This document shows positions 22,677-39,226 of a stretch of DNA of 64,000 nucleotides, one piece after another. Source of the stretch: Dromiciops gliroides (taxonomy: Eukaryota > Chordata > Mammalia > Microbiotheria > Microbiotheriidae); assembly GCF_019393635.1 (NCBI RefSeq), contig NC_057861.1:657475724-657539723 (forward strand), written 5' to 3'. The first letter of the stretch is position 1; every line of letters begins with the position of its first letter. The position numbers and the translations under genes are program-made. Under the pieces are notes generated by a model. That model ran no database searches. It worked only from the letters and a program-made list of their open reading frames with translations, and was not told the origin of the DNA.

Positions 22677-23036
22677 TTATACTAAATTTTGCTGGTAGGT
22701 GATGTTTGTTTGTAATCCCAGTTCCTTTGCCCTCTGGAATATCATATTCCATGCCCTCCGACCCTTCAATGTAGAAGCTGCTAGATCGTGTGCTATCCTG
22801 ACTGTGGCTCCACAATACTTGAATTCTTTCTTTCTGGCTGCTTGTAATATTTTTTCCTTGACCTGGGAGCTCTGGAATTTGGCTAAAATATTCCTGGAAG
22901 TTTTCATTTTGGGATCTCTTTCAGGAAGTGATTGGTGGATTCTTTTCATTTCTATTTTACCTTCTGTTTCTAGAATATCAGGGCAATTTTCCCTGACTAT
23001 TTTTGGAGGATGATGTCTAAGCTCTTTTTTGATCAT
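22677..23036 (-). pseudogene. L1 ORF1p-like C-terminal domain of the HAL1-like element
   Basis: A 119-residue open stretch containing KEKILQAARKK, a basic stretch, then DLAASTLKGRRAW and a final GLQTNITYQQ, closely matching the RNA-binding/C-terminal part of L1 ORF1p, an RNA chaperone that coats L1 RNA. The N-terminal coiled coil upstream is broken by stops. The same region is recognisable but more decayed at 45840-46150. Confidence 0.7.
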
Positions 23037-30404: not shown

Positions 30405-31555
30405 TGTGGTCACCTTATTTCTGTCCCAAATTTTAGGGAAACATAGCTGAGGTTCCTAATATAGTGCTATTTATAAATTAGAGGCTTTAGCACCAGTTTT
30501 GGGGCATTAAGCACTTATTAAAGTATATTAAATATTAGTAAAGAAAGAGGGCACATGGCTCAGAAAGCTCAGAAGCCCTACATACCTATGATAGAAGAGT
30601 GAGAGAGCAAGACGCCATTGTCTCCTCTGAGTCTCAGGCCAAGAGGAAGCGTCTCTGCCTCTGTGAGTTGAAGCTTCCTGTGGGTCCAGAGGAGAGGCAG
30701 CCCTTATACACTGCTTCAGGCTAATTGGCTAGCAATATTCAAATTTACTGGACTTGACAGTGGTCCATTGGCAGAACATGCTGAGGTCAGAGTTCAGAGA
30801 ACACATCCTCTGAGGGCCAGGCTTTCAAATAGATGTGGTTTTAATTAAATTAACTTTAAGTGAGTTAATCAGCAAAGTGAATCCAATCAATCTTTTGTTT
30901 TATTTTGTTTTGTTTTTTGCAGGCAATGGGGATTAAGTGACTTGCCCAGGGTCACACAGCTAGTAAGTGTCAAGTGTCTGAGGCCGGATTTGAACTCAGG
31001 TACTCCTGAATTCAGGGCCAGTGCTTTAACCACTGCGCCATCTAGCTGCCCCCCAATCAATCTTAATATTACTTCCCTCCCACTCCTCAACAGGGGCCTC
31101 TGGCCATCCCAAAACCCATTATTTTTCTCACTAACCTCCCTGTGCTTCGTTAAGAAACATGGTTTCCGTAAATGAAGCAACAATATTACAGATACTTATA
31201 AAGGGTTCTATGATAACTAACAATGTAAAGGGGAATGTAAAGAGAAGAAAATTTGAGAAACGCATTGACAAAAAACTAAAGGGAGCAGTCCCCTTTAGGA
31301 GGTGGATACTACAAATAGTATATGCAATAGGAAAAGGAAAACAGGAAAATGTCCATTTAAGTCTTTGGAAGTCTTTTCTCAGATGATTTTTGGGATGTCA
31401 TCTGGGTGTAGCTCTGGATTATGGGTATGGTCTTGAGTGTGGTTGTAGAGAAGCCTCTCAGGTGTTTAGATGCTGATGATCAGCTAGAAAGTCTCAGCTG
31501 GAAAGTTTTGGGTGTGGGTGTAGAGAAGTCTCTCTGGTGTTTTAGATGCTGATGA
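30405..31555 (-). mobile_element. Related, older ERV fragment (LTR plus 3' internal part) in an L1
   Basis: The L1 3' region breaks off near 30400 and resumes at about 31556. The insert holds an LTR-like block (about 30440-31136, with a SINE at 30895-31052) whose U5/R side matches the CTR1-bearing provirus in layout (TTTAGCA..., ATTAAGCACTTATTAAAG, CCTACAT). It also holds about 400 bp (31137-31545) aligning to 34839-35220, including the shared GTCTTTTCTCAGATG. Next to the LTR end, GTGGTCACC (about 30417) matches the core of the primer-site complement. Strongly diverged and truncated, with no coding capacity. Confidence 0.6.
30883..31064 (-). mobile_element. CORE-SINE in the ERV fragment
   Basis: Minus-strand copy between CCAATCAATCTT duplications (30883-30894, 31053-31064). 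Confidence 0.93.
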
Positions 31556-33979: not shown

Positions 33980-34312
33980 CAAATTCACTCTTTTCATTTT
34001 TGATAGAGGTAACTTGGCATTCTCTTGCTTGGACTATTGTAAAACCCTCCTCATTTGTCTCCATTCTTTGAACCTTTCTCTTCTCCAATCTGTCCTCCAA
34101 ACAACTGCCAAAATGATATTCTTAAAACAGGGATATGACCATGATAGTCTGCCCAAAGATCTGATAATTCCCTCTTGCCTCTAGGATAAAATGCAAACCT
34201 TTAAGTTTGAAATTTTAAACCTTTCATTATCAGGCTCTAGAATCTCTCTCCAAGCTGATTAGACATTGTTTGCCTAGATACACTCTGCATTCCAACCAAA
34301 CTAAACAAATAG
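33980..34312 (+). mobile_element. L2 LINE 3' region, first part
   Basis: Recognised by the L2 phrases around TTGGACTATTGTAA, ATCTGTCCTCCA, GATATGACCATGATAG and AGGATAAAATGCAAACC. It continues at 39211 after the nested SINE/provirus, so it predates both. Confidence 0.7.
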
Positions 34313-34369
34313 GAGGCAGGTAGGTGGCACAGTGAATAAAGCACCAGTCCTGGATTCAGGAGGGCCTGA
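34297..34369 (+). mobile_element. CORE-SINE, 5' half, split by the provirus
   Basis: Head of a WSINE/Mar1-type SINE ending at GAGTTC where the provirus begins; the consensus continues with CAAATCC at 39093. The SINE's own target duplication is CAAACTAAACAAATAG (34297-34312) and CAAACTAACCAAATAG (39211-39226), which places the SINE inside an L2 copy. Confidence 0.9.
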
Positions 34370-34373
34370 GTTC

Positions 34374-34838
34374 TGTTAAGGGCTAAAATTCTAGCTAGTC
34401 TGTCTAAAATATCTAATGAGTGGTTGCCAATAAATTATAAGCTTTAGCAAGAGTTAGGCTTTTAAGCATTTATTAAGGAGAATAAGAATTTGGTAAAGAT
34501 AGAGAGAAAGGCCTACATTCATCTATCTATTAAAGGGAGAGCACATTTCTAGCTCCCCTCTCCACCAGAGTCCCCTGGAAAGAGCCCCAGTCAGAGCGCC
34601 AGGCTCCTCCCTTCTTCCTCCCACAAGCAGTTGTCACTTCCTGATGCCAAAGAAAAGACTCCTGGTCTTGCCCTCAAAGACCTTCACTTCATGGCAGAGC
34701 TTTTCTACAGCAAGTAAGCAGATGTCACTTCCTGACGCCAAAGAAAAGACTCCTGGTCTTGCCCTCAAAGACCTTCACTTCATGGCGGAGCTTTTCTACA
34801 GTAAGTCTCCAGCAGTTGGCGTCATTCCAATCGTTACA
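34374..34838 (-). repeat. 3' LTR of the provirus (465 bp)
   Basis: The longer LTR. On the minus strand U3 comes first (34838 downward) with a tandem 91-bp duplication. An AATAAA (minus strand, complement of TTTATT near 34463) is placed as expected for the R-region polyadenylation signal, followed by a short U5 ending CTTAACA. The outer end abuts the GTTC duplication. Confidence 0.88.
34625..34806. repeat. Two tandem 91-bp units in U3 of the 3' LTR
   Basis: Unit 1 is 34625-34715 and unit 2 is 34716-34806; both begin AAGCAG and contain CCAAAGAAAAGACTCCTGG, with only a few differences. The other LTR has a single unit. U3 tandem repeats are a familiar enhancer arrangement in gammaretroviruses. 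Here it is either an ancestral pair lost in the 5' LTR or a later duplication. Confidence 0.85.
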
Positions 34839-34858
34839 GTTCCCTGCTTTGTTTCTTC
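34839..34858 (-). promoter_or_regulatory. Polypurine tract before the 3' LTR
   Basis: Minus strand reads GAAGAAACAAAGCAGGGAAC directly before the LTR start TGTAACG. It is purine except for three C residues. Plus-strand DNA synthesis in retroviruses is primed from such a tract at this position. Confidence 0.65.
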
Positions 34859-36340
34859 AAGAAACGGGGCATTTCCTTGATGAAACAGTCAAAAATAACA
34901 GAATATAATAATCTATGCTAATTAACAATATGTTAATAACAATATAGAAAAGGGAGAGAGGAAAGTTTTGTCTAGAGGGGCGGGTTTTTTTGTCCTCATG
35001 AACTGGCACTTTGACATTGGTCTTGCAAAGGAAGGGCCTCTGCAGAGAGTACATGTTACAGATGGTGTATATTATAACAGAAAAATAAAAGAAACAACAA
35101 CAACAACAACAACAAAACAAAACTGTTCATTTAAAGTCTCTGAAAGTCTTTTCTCAGATGTCCTCTAGGTGTTGTCATGGAATGGAAGTCTTTTCAGGGG
35201 TTGATGTGTGGATGCTGGTAATCAGACAGGAACATTTCCTACAAAATTGAGCTTAACACAACTTTAAAATAGCTTTGTCAATAATCAAATCAAACAATGA
35301 AAGTTCTCAAAAACATGTCTAAGGGAATTCAGAATCTTAGTTGTTACACATGAAACATATAATAAAACAAAAATTGAAACATTGTTTAAAATTAATATTA
35401 CTATAGTCCCCCCTTATGGAGGGTAAGTTGAGAAGACAATTGCTGTGATGTTAATTTTTTAAAATAATTTTTATCTTTGTTTCATCACTTTTTGCATCAT
35501 CTTCCTAATTATCCTCATGCCATTATGAGAAATTAAAAAATCTAATATAATTGGTAACAGGTGTCAAGGCCAAATTCAACACTGTATGTATCATGACACC
35601 TGAGATAATTATGGGGATTACCATAAAAGAACAGAGAAATGATGGGATATGAGCATTCCCACACTTGAGCAATATATACTGCCCATGCAGTATGCCAGGC
35701 TTAAAATAGGTGGATGGAATATATGTCCATGCCACCGAACATATTGGGGGAAACTGAGTCAGACTTAATCAGATTCATGGGATTGAGATGTCCATGGCAT
35801 CAGGCATATAGGAAGGGGCATAGAAGCCAGATGAAGAATGAGATGGGTGGGATCAAGACTTCCAGCCATCTGTACAGCATTGTGGGGAAAAATAAAATAA
35901 AATATTAAACCAAGAGAATCTAACCTCAACATTTGTCAAAAGCCGTTCCCTTGGCCATACCTCTACTTCATGCATGTCTCCTCTCATGTGACAGTTCAAT
36001 GTCTGCTCTTGCATGTATTCCTCTTGTGATTGGATGGCATCTTGGCCAACTGGCATCTGATAACTCAGAATAAAGGCAATTAATGTCTTAAATGATAAGT
36101 TCCCATAATCCAAGTCTCATATGGATTTAAAAATTGAGGATAATAAATGAACTCAAAAAACGTGAACACACCTTGACTCAGAATATAATATACAATTATG
36201 CAACAATTTCAAATAATACCTCTTCTTTTTACTTAGTATACAATTACTTTTGTGAAAAATCAGAACATATTTAAATACAAGATAAAGCACAACACAGTCT
36301 CAAAGCAAACTTTTTTTTTTTTTGGAATAAAAGAAAACTT
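34859..36340 (-). pseudogene. 3' part of the provirus, possible decayed env end plus 3' non-coding
   Basis: Minus strand, AT-rich, frames repeatedly broken. Around 35735-35440 a hydrophobic stretch followed by a short basic tail, separated by a frameshift, is laid out like the membrane anchor and cytoplasmic end of a retroviral envelope; the similarity is weak. The part 34859-35220 is clearly homologous to 31137-31545 of a second ERV fragment, so it is genuine proviral sequence. An AAC triplet run lies at 35095-35116. No intact viral protein is present. Confidence 0.4.
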
Positions 36341-36510
36341 TTACCGAGTAGCTTTTGGTGGCATTTGGATCTCTCAGAGGTTTTATCCTGGAAGAAGCTG
36401 ACTGAGCCAGGTGTTTCTGAGATCAATTCAGGTGAAAGAAACCAGCTAAAAGTACCCAACTGCCAAATTATTATCTGAGAGGAGTTCACTGTTTCACCTT
36501 TCCTAGCAAG
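36341..36510 (+). other. Probable mRNA-derived 5' leader of the CTR1 retrocopy
   Basis: About 170 bp of mixed-composition sequence directly before the CTR1 ATG, ending in AGCAAGATGA, a usable start context (A at -3 and after the ATG). The sharp change at about 36340 from AT-rich proviral sequence with a 13-T run (about 36310-36322) suggests the cDNA begins here. I cannot confirm it as CTR1 5'UTR without the parental gene. No promoter motif is evident. Confidence 0.45.
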
Positions 36511-37074
36511 ATGAACCACGAACACCATCACGGAATGCACCATATGGAAGAAACTACCACTATGATGCCCCACCATCATTCACCTACAGACTCTCATGCT
36601 CATGGTGGGGGAGGAGGAGGACACATGATGATGCCTATGACCTATTTTGGATATAAGAATGTAGAAGTGTTGTTTTCTGGATTAGTGATCAATACACCTG
36701 GGGAAATGGCTGGGGCATTTGTGGCTATCTTTTTGTTAGCCATGTTCTATGAAGGCCTCAAGATAGTCCAGGAAAGCTTGCTGCGTAAGTCCCAGGTCAG
36801 CATTCGTTACAACTCCATGCCAGTCCCAGGGCCAAATGGAACCATCCTTATGCAAACACACAAAACTGTTGGGCAACAGATGCTAAGTTTACCTCACTTT
36901 CTGCAGACAGTACTACATGTTATCCAGGTGGTCATCAGCTACTTCCTTATGCTTATCTTTATGACCTACAATGCATACCTCTGCATCACAGTAGCAGCAG
37001 GAGCTGAAACTGGCTACTTTCTCTTTAGCTGGAAGAAGGCAGTAGTAGTGGACATAACAGAGCACTGCCATTAA
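36511..37074 (+). CDS. SLC31A1: Intronless SLC31A1 (CTR1) copper transporter retrocopy, ORF intact
   Basis: High-affinity copper importer of the CTR family, which works as a homotrimer in the plasma membrane and endosomes and passes Cu(I) inward. The 187-residue frame runs from ATG to TAA without introns or stops; mammalian CTR1 is about 190 residues. Seen in order: a His/Met-rich extracellular N-terminus (residues 1-43, with MMMPM at 39-43), TM1 about 58-80, a cytosolic loop with the well-conserved stretch 88-117, TM2 about 130-152 with the selectivity motif MxxxM (M147, M151), TM3 about 155-174 with GxxxG (G164, G168), and the C-terminal HCH metal-binding tail (185-187). Compared with human CTR1 as I remember it, one aromatic residue before TM1 is missing, E166 replaces a glycine inside GxxxG, and the N-terminal N-glycosylation sequon is absent. 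Lack of introns marks a retrocopy. It lies antisense inside a provirus. Identity is near certain; expression is unknown. Confidence 0.93.
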
Positions 37075-38498
37075 TGCCAGACTCTAGAATGTGGCCTTAT
37101 TTACCACAATGGGAAGCAGCTGGGGACTGGGAGCAAATTTTTAAGTTCTCCCTTTGAACCCTCCATGACCCCCTGCCTCCCAACACTTGCAAATCAAGGA
37201 GGTTTGCCTACTAACCTCCAAGCTGGATGGTGCCCTCCCCAAAATGTTGATTTCTGCTATTAGGCTGAGATCCTCAGTTCTCCTAATCAAAGTAACCTTT
37301 TGTTGTAATTTCTTGATCACATACTTCCCTTTTTAATCTCTTGTTTTGTTATAATTTTGTGGATTGTAAATTCTGGGTCCTAGGTGGTCGTGGGAAACTC
37401 CTACCCACCAATAACACTAGAACATCTCCCAGTTTTTGGACTGAGTGGGGAAATAGGGTGTGCCTTTGCCAAGGTGTGTGATGTGATACATGGCGTTCTG
37501 AGAATCTGAAGGATGTACAAGTTGAATAAAGGTGCAACAGCATAAAGATGTATTCCCTTGAATAGCAACAGTCCACATCAGAAGCTTCTGCTTTATCTCA
37601 CCAATCACACTTGACAATCAATTGACAATTTAGGAAATATTTCCAAATAAAACCACTGGCTTTTTGTCTTGGCTCCCTTAGTTGTGATCATAGCTTTGTG
37701 AAGTAAAATTTCTTGTCTCATAGCTTATAGTGGTGATTCTTAGAAGGGACCTGCAGGTAAAGAGAATCCATCCCTTCCCACCACCTCCCTCCTACAGCCT
37801 GTTCTGTCACCAACTTCAGTGAGTGTCAGTCCTGGACAGTAGGGCAGTGTGGAACGTGATCCGCTTTTGTCCTGGGACATCCTTTAGCTCAGCCTCCACC
37901 TAGACGGTTTCATCTGAAGACTTGATTTGCTTCTGACCTAAAAGAATAGCCATTGTGATAGATTCCTTCCCCAACCTTTTCTCATAGGGTGTCATGTTTA
38001 ACTGTTCATCCTTGCTGTTGAGCTTACTTTGTTTTGTAAAGTCCAAACTACCTCTATAAAGTGACTCTTCCTGAGATGGCCTAATCCTGTCCCACTCCAT
38101 GGTGTTTGATAATCTCATTGTGGCCTAAGGCAGAAGAACATCTGCTCTGGTGGTTTTTAAGTCTATGCTCTTCCTAGAAAGTGCTGCACCCTTTTATGGT
38201 TGTGGGAATTCACTGGGCTTCATGACAAGGGAGGAGTAGAATGTGGGGTCTGGAGAGGAGGGGAGGGACCAGGGCAATTTGAATAAGACTTGATTTTGAA
38301 CTCAGGCCTGAATTCCCTTTCCCCACTTCCTCCACTGCTTCTAGGGGTTGGGTTGTTGCCTCCAGGCATGCAAAATTAGAGAATCTCTCAGCATTGGAAT
38401 TTGAAAAAAATGCAGGAGGCCTAGGTTTCCCTGAAAAAGTATGGCTGGGAGAGGGGGAGATATTCCCTTGTGTGAGCACCTTGCTGGCTCTTCTAACA
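37075..38498 (+). other. Probable CTR1 3'UTR of the retrocopy, with polyadenylation signals
   Basis: Non-coding on the + strand after the CTR1 stop. AATAAA occurs at 37525-37530 and 37646-37651, and the block ends in an A-rich run (38499-38518, AAAAAT repeats) that could be a decayed poly(A) tail. This would give a cDNA of roughly 2.2 kb. Alternatively the cDNA ends near 37670 and the remainder (37670-38498) is separate sequence carrying a minus-strand open frame. I see no gag or pol similarity here. Confidence 0.4.
37816..38118 (-). other. Minus-strand open frame of unknown origin with one internal stop
   Basis: From an ATG in good context (GCCACAATGA, at 38118) the minus strand is open for 72 codons to a TAG (37900-37902), then stays in the same frame for 27 codons to TGA at 37816-37818. 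The composition is protein-like (charged, hydrophilic, no low complexity). About 75 bp upstream on the same strand is CATAAAAGGG, a TATA-like box. It is antisense to the presumed CTR1 3'UTR but sense to the provirus. I do not recognise the product. It could be chance, an overlapping antisense gene copied with the CTR1 3'UTR, or a second captured transcript. Confidence 0.2.
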
Positions 38499-38518
38499 AA
38501 AATAAAAATAAAAATAGA

Positions 38519-38735
38519 AAATCCACAAAAACAAAGCATTAACATGATCTTATCTCCCATTTGTCTAGTTAAATGGACTAAAATAAAAAATAGGGTAATT
38601 AGGGAGTTTAAAAGGTCCATTTGAAAAAATTTAAAGGGAAAACACCCAACAATTCAGCAGTACTTCAGATTTAAAGGGACAGGGTAGGGGAAATTTCTTA
38701 CCCAACCAGAAGGTCAGAAGAGTGAGGTTCAGCTT
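38519..38735 (-). other. Proviral leader with splice-donor-like site and a gag-like start
   Basis: Between the primer site and the cDNA junction. On the minus strand GGGTAAG (about 38697-38703) resembles the major splice donor, and an ATG at 38560 begins a frame with Met-Gly, the myristoylation context of Gag. The frame has no further similarity that I can see and runs into the A/T-rich junction at about 38500-38520, so gag, if this is its start, was cut off after a few codons. Confidence 0.4.
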
Positions 38736-38753
38736 ATCCCTTCGTGGTCACCA
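38736..38753 (-). promoter_or_regulatory. Primer-binding site, tRNA-Arg type
   Basis: Minus strand reads TGGTGACCACGAAGGGAT, two bases after the LTR end CA. It matches the complement of the 3' end of mammalian tRNA-Arg(CCG), as I recall it, at 16 of 18 positions, both mismatches being C-to-T. Position and the TGG start are diagnostic of an 18-nt retroviral primer site and prove the minus orientation. Confidence 0.75.
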
Positions 38754-38755
38754 TT

Positions 38756-39089
38756 TGTTAAGGGCTAAAATTCTAGCTAGTCTGTTTAAAATATCTAATG
38801 AGTGGTCGCCAATAAATTATAAGCTTTAGCAAGAGTAAAGAGAGAGAGAAAGGCCTACATTCCTCTATCTATTAAAGGGAGAGCACATTTCTAGCTCCCC
38901 TCTCCACCAGAGTCCCCCGGAAAGAGCCTCAGTCAGAGCACCAGGCTCCTCCCTTCTTCCTCCCACAAGGAGATGTCGCTTCCTGACGCCAAAGAAAAGA
39001 CTCCTGGTCTTGCCCTCAAAGACCTTCACTTCATGGCGGAGCTTTTCTACAGTAAGTCTCCAGCAGGTGGCATCATTCCGATCGTTACA
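38756..39089 (-). repeat. 5' LTR of the provirus (334 bp)
   Basis: On the minus strand it starts TGTAACGATCGGAATGATGC and ends GAATTTTAGCCCTTAACA. Relative to the other LTR it lacks one copy of a 91-bp U3 unit and about 40 bp near the R region that holds the AATAAA signal. Both LTRs are copied from one template at integration, so at least one changed afterwards. Confidence 0.88.
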
Positions 39090-39226
39090 GTTCAAATCCA
39101 GCCTCAGACACTTGACACTTACTAGCTGTGTGACCCTGGGTAAGTCACTTAACCCTCATTGCCTAATAAAAACAATAATAATAACAATAATGATGATAAT
39201 AGTAATATAACAAACTAACCAAATAG
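39090..39226 (+). mobile_element. CORE-SINE, 3' half, split by the provirus
   Basis: Continues the SINE interrupted at 34369: AAATCCAGCCTCAGACACTT through AGTCACTTAACC, then an A-rich tail with AAT/GAT units (39166-39210) and the second target duplication (39211-39226). Confidence 0.9.

Follow-up and report, generated by a model that had tools for sequence, protein, structure and literature searches.

A CTR1 cDNA in antisense inside a marsupial endogenous retrovirus: a probable one-off capture by template switching

Endogenous retroviruses (ERVs) are, to our knowledge, rarely found to have captured host genes. Here, we describe an ERV of the monito del monte, Dromiciops gliroides, that contains a spliced copy of the mRNA of CTR1 (SLC31A1), a host copper transporter. 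The locus lies in a 64,000-nt stretch of the 3.3-Gb assembly (C1:657475724-657539723), which we refer to as the window. The CTR1 copy stands in antisense to the provirus, which belongs to an apparently non-autonomous ERV family, and occupies the place of a proviral segment. We consider it probable that this arrangement is a one-off capture of CTR1 mRNA by the ERV, resulting from double template switching of a retroviral reverse transcriptase (RT) before or at integration.

CTR1 homology in the window spans positions 36345-38234 on the plus strand. It starts with the 5′ untranslated region (UTR; 36345-36510), in which exons 1 and 2 are joined at 36379/36380, continues with an intact frame of 187 aa in antisense to the ERV (36511-37074; Pfam Ctr, E 3.4e-29), and ends in a truncated, tailless 3′ UTR (37075-38234) that matches the parent gene up to 38234. 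At its 5′ end, it falls 12-15 nt short of the mRNA start that the retrocopies L030, L033, and L018 indicate (L-numbers, such as L009-L033, denote genome loci compared with the window, L028 being the stretch with the parent gene). The parent is an intron-bearing locus at C2:393.36 Mb, whose introns are absent from the window copy (the exon joins were checked), in agreement with the complete intronless SLC31A1 frame reported in an initial annotation of this DNA. Several ordinary CTR1 copies end at a polyadenylation site at ~37665. The 3′ end of the window copy lies beyond this site, so a long form of the mRNA was copied.

The assembly was searched with positions 36300-38500, and the best 40 of 1953 candidates were scored: the parent gene, the window itself, 17 other CTR1 loci, and 21 copies of the proviral segment 38204-38500. 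Six of these 21 listed copies were fetched (L021-L026, here called siblings), five of them together with their outer pieces, consisting of the long terminal repeat (LTR) and 3′ internal sequence (L023 was left out). All six contain the ERV sequence found on both sides of the CTR1 block, all six are free of CTR1, and the assembled structure of the window agrees with these proviruses on either side. On the left, the 3′ internal part of the ERV (34839-36344, minus strand), which is present in the siblings (88-94% identity over the matched internal pieces), passes into CTR1 at 36344/36345 with a 1-bp overlap, as judged by alignment to five siblings and five CTR1 retrocopies. The siblings read ...AAAGAAAACTTTTA(C/T) here and then diverge, the retrocopies read ...CTCCGAGTAGC or CTCCAAGTAGC, and the window switches from the former to the latter. 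On the right, the word GGGAGG (38229-38234) is common to the parent 3′ UTR and the ERV, and the window passes from one to the other within it; an overlap of at least 6 bp at random breakpoints has a chance of 0.0017. Beyond it, the ERV continues with its 5′ internal region and leader (38235-38736, minus strand), which are continuous in all six siblings, the whole stretch from 38203 or 38211 to 38760 matching at 88-93% identity. The right junction, initially placed near 38500, therefore has to be moved: CTR1 DNA ends at 38229-38234, and 38211-38755 is proviral in all six siblings.

Between the positions of the two joints, five siblings have 916, 943, 616, 940, and 930 bp of sequence and L024 has 1101 bp. 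Because the siblings keep this segment of their own, CTR1 (36345-38234) replaces proviral sequence rather than being added to it. The initial statement that gag, pol, and most of env had given way to CTR1 was too strong, as the siblings have 0.6-1.1 kb at this place and ~3 kb of internal sequence in total, which is too little to accommodate gag, pol, and env. A zinc-knuckle-like Gag remnant was recognized in L021 by eye (not by domain search). Several candidate features near the joints were rejected. The A-rich tract at 38497-38510 might be taken for a degenerate poly(A) tail and the T-run at 36310-36323 for a scar of transduction, but the siblings have the same tract and, at the position of the T-run, shorter runs of T. 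A target duplication formed by 36310-36340 and 38490-38560 (AATAAAA, CAAAGCA) is at chance level, and its right tract is proviral in the siblings.

The window copy has no poly(A) tail, as it runs into the ERV at GGGAGG, and no direct repeat scoring at least 11 was found between 34839-36510 and 37080-38755 (direct repeats shorter than 11 bp are indistinguishable from chance). From this structure we infer which enzyme switched templates, on which strand, and when. During plus-strand synthesis, the template would be ERV minus-strand DNA, which has the polarity of the plus strand of the window and of CTR1 mRNA. The RT would leave this template at GGGAGG and move onto a spliced CTR1 mRNA within its 3′ UTR, copy the mRNA nearly to its 5′ end, and return to the ERV template further on, thereby skipping ~0.9 kb of ERV sequence. 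The product would then integrate into a short interspersed nuclear element (SINE) with a 4-bp duplication. A switch near the 3′ end of the mRNA and a return past its 5′ end would result in an antisense, tailless, and nearly 5′-complete insert that replaces ERV sequence, and it is the antisense orientation that points to plus-strand synthesis. Template switching guided by microsimilarity has been described for LTR elements (PMC5408686, section 2.2, citing Tan and coworkers), in a section that does not extend to the plus-strand case. The initial annotation held the antisense orientation against capture; this objection stands for a capture during minus-strand synthesis, but would lose its force for switching on the plus strand. 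It had also proposed either capture or LTR-mediated retroposition. Capture by the RT is the part that we favour, while a spread of the cargo was not seen: the joints occur at no other scored locus, which argues for a one-off event and not for a cargo that spread.

The main rival to capture is repair after integration, in which a broken provirus would have lost ~0.9 kb and the gap would have been filled by CTR1 cDNA via microhomology, as in endonuclease-independent or cDNA-patch insertions (for which Sen et al. is cited in PMC2912911). The missing tail, the missing target duplication, the 6-bp overlap, and the deletion at the site are all compatible with repair, which would leave the orientation of CTR1 free and would account for joints that are found at one locus only among the best 40 of 1953 candidates. 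The non-significant outcome of the timing comparisons over all sites (below) also suits it. We nevertheless regard repair as unlikely. The CTR1 copies with neither a tail nor a target duplication (the window, L017, and L019) all three lie in ERV sequence. Elsewhere, ERV probes applied to 204,124 bp of other DNA (E 1e-8; the rest of the window plus the CTR1 loci, which is not a random sample) recovered only LTR pieces (~90 bp in L028 and ~30474-30744 in the window) and the leader in chimeric CTR1 copies, and found no other internal ERV sequence. Three such pieces falling into ERVs would be unexpected for repair. Furthermore, the divergence of CTR1 is no lower than that of the LTRs, which does not favour a late insertion.

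Classical L1-mediated retrocopying of CTR1 into an already deleted provirus, the main alternative of the initial annotation, is in our view very unlikely. In mammals, L1 is the dominant element and makes most retrocopies (PMC5408686), and CTR1 mRNA has often been an L1 substrate in this genome, as seen in L029, L030, L031, L032, L033, L018, and L020, which have tails and duplications. L1-made processed retrocopies are recognized by the lack of introns, a 3′ poly(A), and target duplications (PMC7692494). In the window, the CTR1 copy lacks poly(A) and breaks off within its 3′ UTR, at a 6-bp word shared with the ERV; a direct repeat scoring at least 11 is missing, and a segment present in the siblings has been replaced, which together make L1 pasting an unlikely origin. 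Sixteen other CTR1 copies were scored in the same way (L011, which duplicates L010 in tandem, was left out of the tail and duplication test), and 12 of them gave a repeat of at least 11, namely the seven just listed and L010, L012, L013, L014 (low complexity), and L016; the direct-repeat test thus works. Among the remaining copies, L009 has none of at least 11, L015 a SINE match only, L017 none, and L019 one of 9 bp. A-rich sequence follows the CTR1 copy in 12 of the 16; none is present at L016, L017, or L019, and a short TAAAA before a CA repeat is the only A-rich sequence at L015. Short target duplications, moreover, are described as rare in 5′-truncated mRNA retrocopies (PMC2912911). A mobile cargo, with CTR1 carried to several loci by a spreading ERV lineage, would fit the CTR1 branch being longer than the LTR branch, through earlier residence in an ERV, but is highly improbable: the check for loci sharing both joints that the initial annotation had suggested found neither joint in the 17 CTR1 and 21 ERV-segment loci (best 40 of 1953 candidates), and a locus sharing them should rank near the top of the 1953.

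Several points weigh against capture by template switching. Switching onto an RNA template during plus-strand synthesis is our own suggestion. The overlap at the left joint is only 1 bp, compared with 6 bp on the right, and the sibling evidence covers six of the 21 listed copies. With both joints absent from all 17 other CTR1 loci and all 21 other ERV-segment loci, mobility of the product does not serve as proof that the capture preceded integration. The association of tailless copies with ERVs is weakened by L016, possibly a tailless copy outside ERVs (where the best repeat scores 12), and at L009 a tail is present although no repeat reaches 11. At L017, the upstream sequence is taken as ERV from our reading of it and a weak Gag match. 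Timing adds to these points, as the comparisons over all sites are not significant: of 1309 CTR1 sites, 40 changed on the window branch, compared with 12 of 668 lineage-sites for the LTRs (p 0.10), and the distance of the 3′ UTR to the parent compared with that between the LTRs gives p 0.54. Without CpG sites, the branch comparison becomes 36 of 1293 versus 6 of 632 (p 0.008, with CpG defined differently for the CTR1 and LTR sets), the 3′ UTR comparison gives p 0.06, and that of the 5′ and 3′ UTRs together gives p 0.03. Gene conversion could have lowered the LTR figure, which is 12 differences over 334 aligned sites for the window pair. LTR pairs of siblings differ by 3.5-5.3% in five comparisons; the sixth value, 13.9% for L024/L040b, probably comes from two LTRs that do not form a pair. 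Judged from such substitution counts, the divergence data do not date the capture firmly.

The search for the joints resulted in two other ERV-CTR1 joins, L017 and L019, with joints different from those of the window. L019 (C5:52392400-52402300, C5:52.4 Mb) has a CTR1 piece in sense orientation inside ERV pol, in the order Gag_p30 and RNase H remnants, 323 bp of CTR1, and the C-terminus of a murine leukaemia virus (MLV)-type integrase. On the left side, at least 39 siblings of this ERV match, 38 of them to the last or last-but-one base before the joint; on the right side, at least 39 match from the joint on, one of which begins 3 nt later. The joints themselves overlap by 0-1 bp. In five siblings found on both sides, these sides are 1470, 1479, 1479, 1479, and 2068 bp apart, so ~1.48 kb of pol has been replaced by CTR1. 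The CTR1 piece differs from the parent at 0.6% of the 323 sites (2 changes), which indicates a recent event. A repeat at L019, CATTGCATA, was rejected as a target duplication because two siblings that were read have 8 of its 9 bases at both places; the TTT before its right copy likewise consists of the siblings' own bases. The L019 ERV family is large, with 4144 first-look candidates in the genome. No second LTR that could be used for dating was recognized in the stretches examined for L017 or L019.

At L017 (C1:591587500-591597400, C1:591.6 Mb), a tailless CTR1 copy with an intact frame of 197 aa lies in sense orientation, and its 5′ joint coincides with the boundary between exons 1 and 2 or lies close to it. 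Upstream, a leader reads like viral R-U5 and primer-site sequence, accompanied by a weak Gag_p30 match (E 0.067). The 3′ region is repeated, with other scored loci matching at 68-86% in the main matches; among the matches listed, many begin 20-55 nt past the CTR1 end and others near 130, and the ERV of the window itself matches part of this region. The CTR1 sequence of L017 differs from the parent by 11.2%. In L012 and L014, the L017 leader is joined from CTTCTGG to TAAGATG, two words that in L017 flank 2,238 bp beginning with gtaag and ending with cctag; the join recurs in L013, with one base change there and another just after. The messages of L012-L014 end after an AATAAA that is absent from the window, with tails and repeats found by the test above. 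Read from these junctions, the three loci are retrocopies of a spliced leader-CTR1 message. A similar arrangement occurs at L010/L011 (C3:40.48-40.50 Mb), where the leader of a short ERV remnant is spliced to a downstream CTR1 copy. At L010, the ERV remnant upstream of the leader-CTR1 copy has a pair of LTRs (81% identity) and the intron between the leader of the remnant and CTR1 is 1,181 bp, and the tandem copy L011 is built likewise. L009 (C2:544.19 Mb) contains these two parts joined, as in the spliced product of the L010/L011 arrangement.

L014 (C1:557814200-557824100) also has an intact frame, of 199 aa. It differs from L017 by 14 synonymous and 9 nonsynonymous changes (ratio of nonsynonymous to synonymous rates, dN/dS, 0.16; P 0.0007 if 27% of changes are assumed to be synonymous), a pair picked afterwards from seven in the lineage, the others giving 0.63, 0.78, 0.79, 0.51, 0.96, and 2.65. 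On these codon counts, the pair looks selected, and the L014/L017 lineage is possibly a retained gene of retroviral origin. Tentatively, and with more doubt than for the window alone, we suggest that ERV RT in Dromiciops may have captured CTR1 mRNA at least three times, on both strands, and that the L017 cargo may have been transduced, spliced from a viral promoter, recopied, and kept under purifying selection. If true, this would be a natural germline case in which a retrovirus transduced a host gene, here one for a metal transporter. The leader-CTR1 lineage shows how a captured gene can acquire a promoter as well as a splice form and a new poly(A) signal, and then seed further copies, and this wider set of ERV-CTR1 joins is a more interesting result than the window alone.

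The CTR1 frame of the window itself, which is antisense to the LTR, is probably not functional. Its branch has 8 synonymous and 8 nonsynonymous changes, and in a simulation of substitutions at the LTR rate (indels left out) 76% of frames stay stop-free, so that the frame can have survived by chance. The frame has a G-to-E change in what would be the third membrane helix. A tally of window-private changes at the protein level was set aside, since several of the N-terminal residues concerned are also encoded by the parent gene. In the parent gene (L028, ~635-943), the assembled exon ends would splice to one Met codon, and the copies that were inspected have ATGATGATG; the discrepancy reflects a young deletion, an allelic difference, or a slip in the assembly.

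The provirus, which lies in minus orientation, splits a SINE. The SINE is flanked by a 15-bp target duplication with one mismatch between the copies, AAACTAAACAAATAG at 34298-34312 and AAACTAACCAAATAG at 39212-39226, both read in the sequence. Its left half (34313-34373, plus strand) ends in GTTC (34370-34373), which the provirus duplicated at 39090-39093, in front of the right half (together 39090-39211, plus strand). SINEs of this kind that lack the interruption, found at other places in the window, show what the empty site looks like. The placement of a provirus in a SINE in the initial annotation was thereby borne out, as were its LTRs, GTTC duplication, and primer site. The 3′ LTR (34374-34838, minus strand) has a 91-bp internal tandem duplication (34625-34806). 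The 5′ LTR (38756-39089, minus strand) is without ~40 bp that are present in the other; this loss, at 38834-38835, takes away an AATAAA on the ERV strand. The primer binding site, TGGTGACCACGAAGGGA, was read at 38737-38753 (minus strand) and is presumably of the tRNA-Arg type.

Pfam recognized no domain in ten searched frames of the ERV parts of the window, a PDB search with one ERV frame gave no match, and neither did an Rfam search, scans of viral contigs for CTR1 and for an LTR word, or a protein search with the open reading frame across the right joint (mostly ERV sequence). Elsewhere in the window, 22677-23036 is a fragment of L1 ORF1 (Pfam Transposase_22, E 8.3e-05), and ~30474-30744 has short LTR-like matches to the ERV families of L019 and L010. 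A literature search found no paper on an SLC31A1 retrocopy or processed pseudogene, and a search by title and start of abstract found none on this locus.

Compared with retroviral transduction, as in oncogene capture, the window is similar in that host coding sequence replaces viral internal sequence between the leader and the 3′ part, and L017 is similar in having a viral leader spliced to sense CTR1; unlike in transduction, the cargo of the window is antisense and its joints are absent from other scored loci. With endonuclease-independent or cDNA-patch repair, it shares the missing target duplication, truncated 3′ end, joint overlap, and deletion at the site, whereas the clustering of such events in ERVs sets it apart. 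LTR-mediated retroposition (PMC5408686) likewise places a spliced host cDNA, covering only part of the mRNA, between LTRs, with bases shared at a joint and the short integration duplication of the element itself. The route described there does not yield an antisense cargo, however, and the window is a mammalian case, where L1 is dominant. An intronless cDNA with a near-complete 5′ end is what the window has in common with L1 retrocopies (PMC7692494), from which it differs by the lack of a tail and of a found target duplication and by the replacement of the target segment. If the capture was indeed antisense, it would point to switching during plus-strand synthesis. In this genome, one host mRNA is thus present both as L1 retrocopies, with tails and duplications, and as ERV joins, which are tailless and replace viral sequence; lying side by side, the copies make the signatures of the two routes directly testable.

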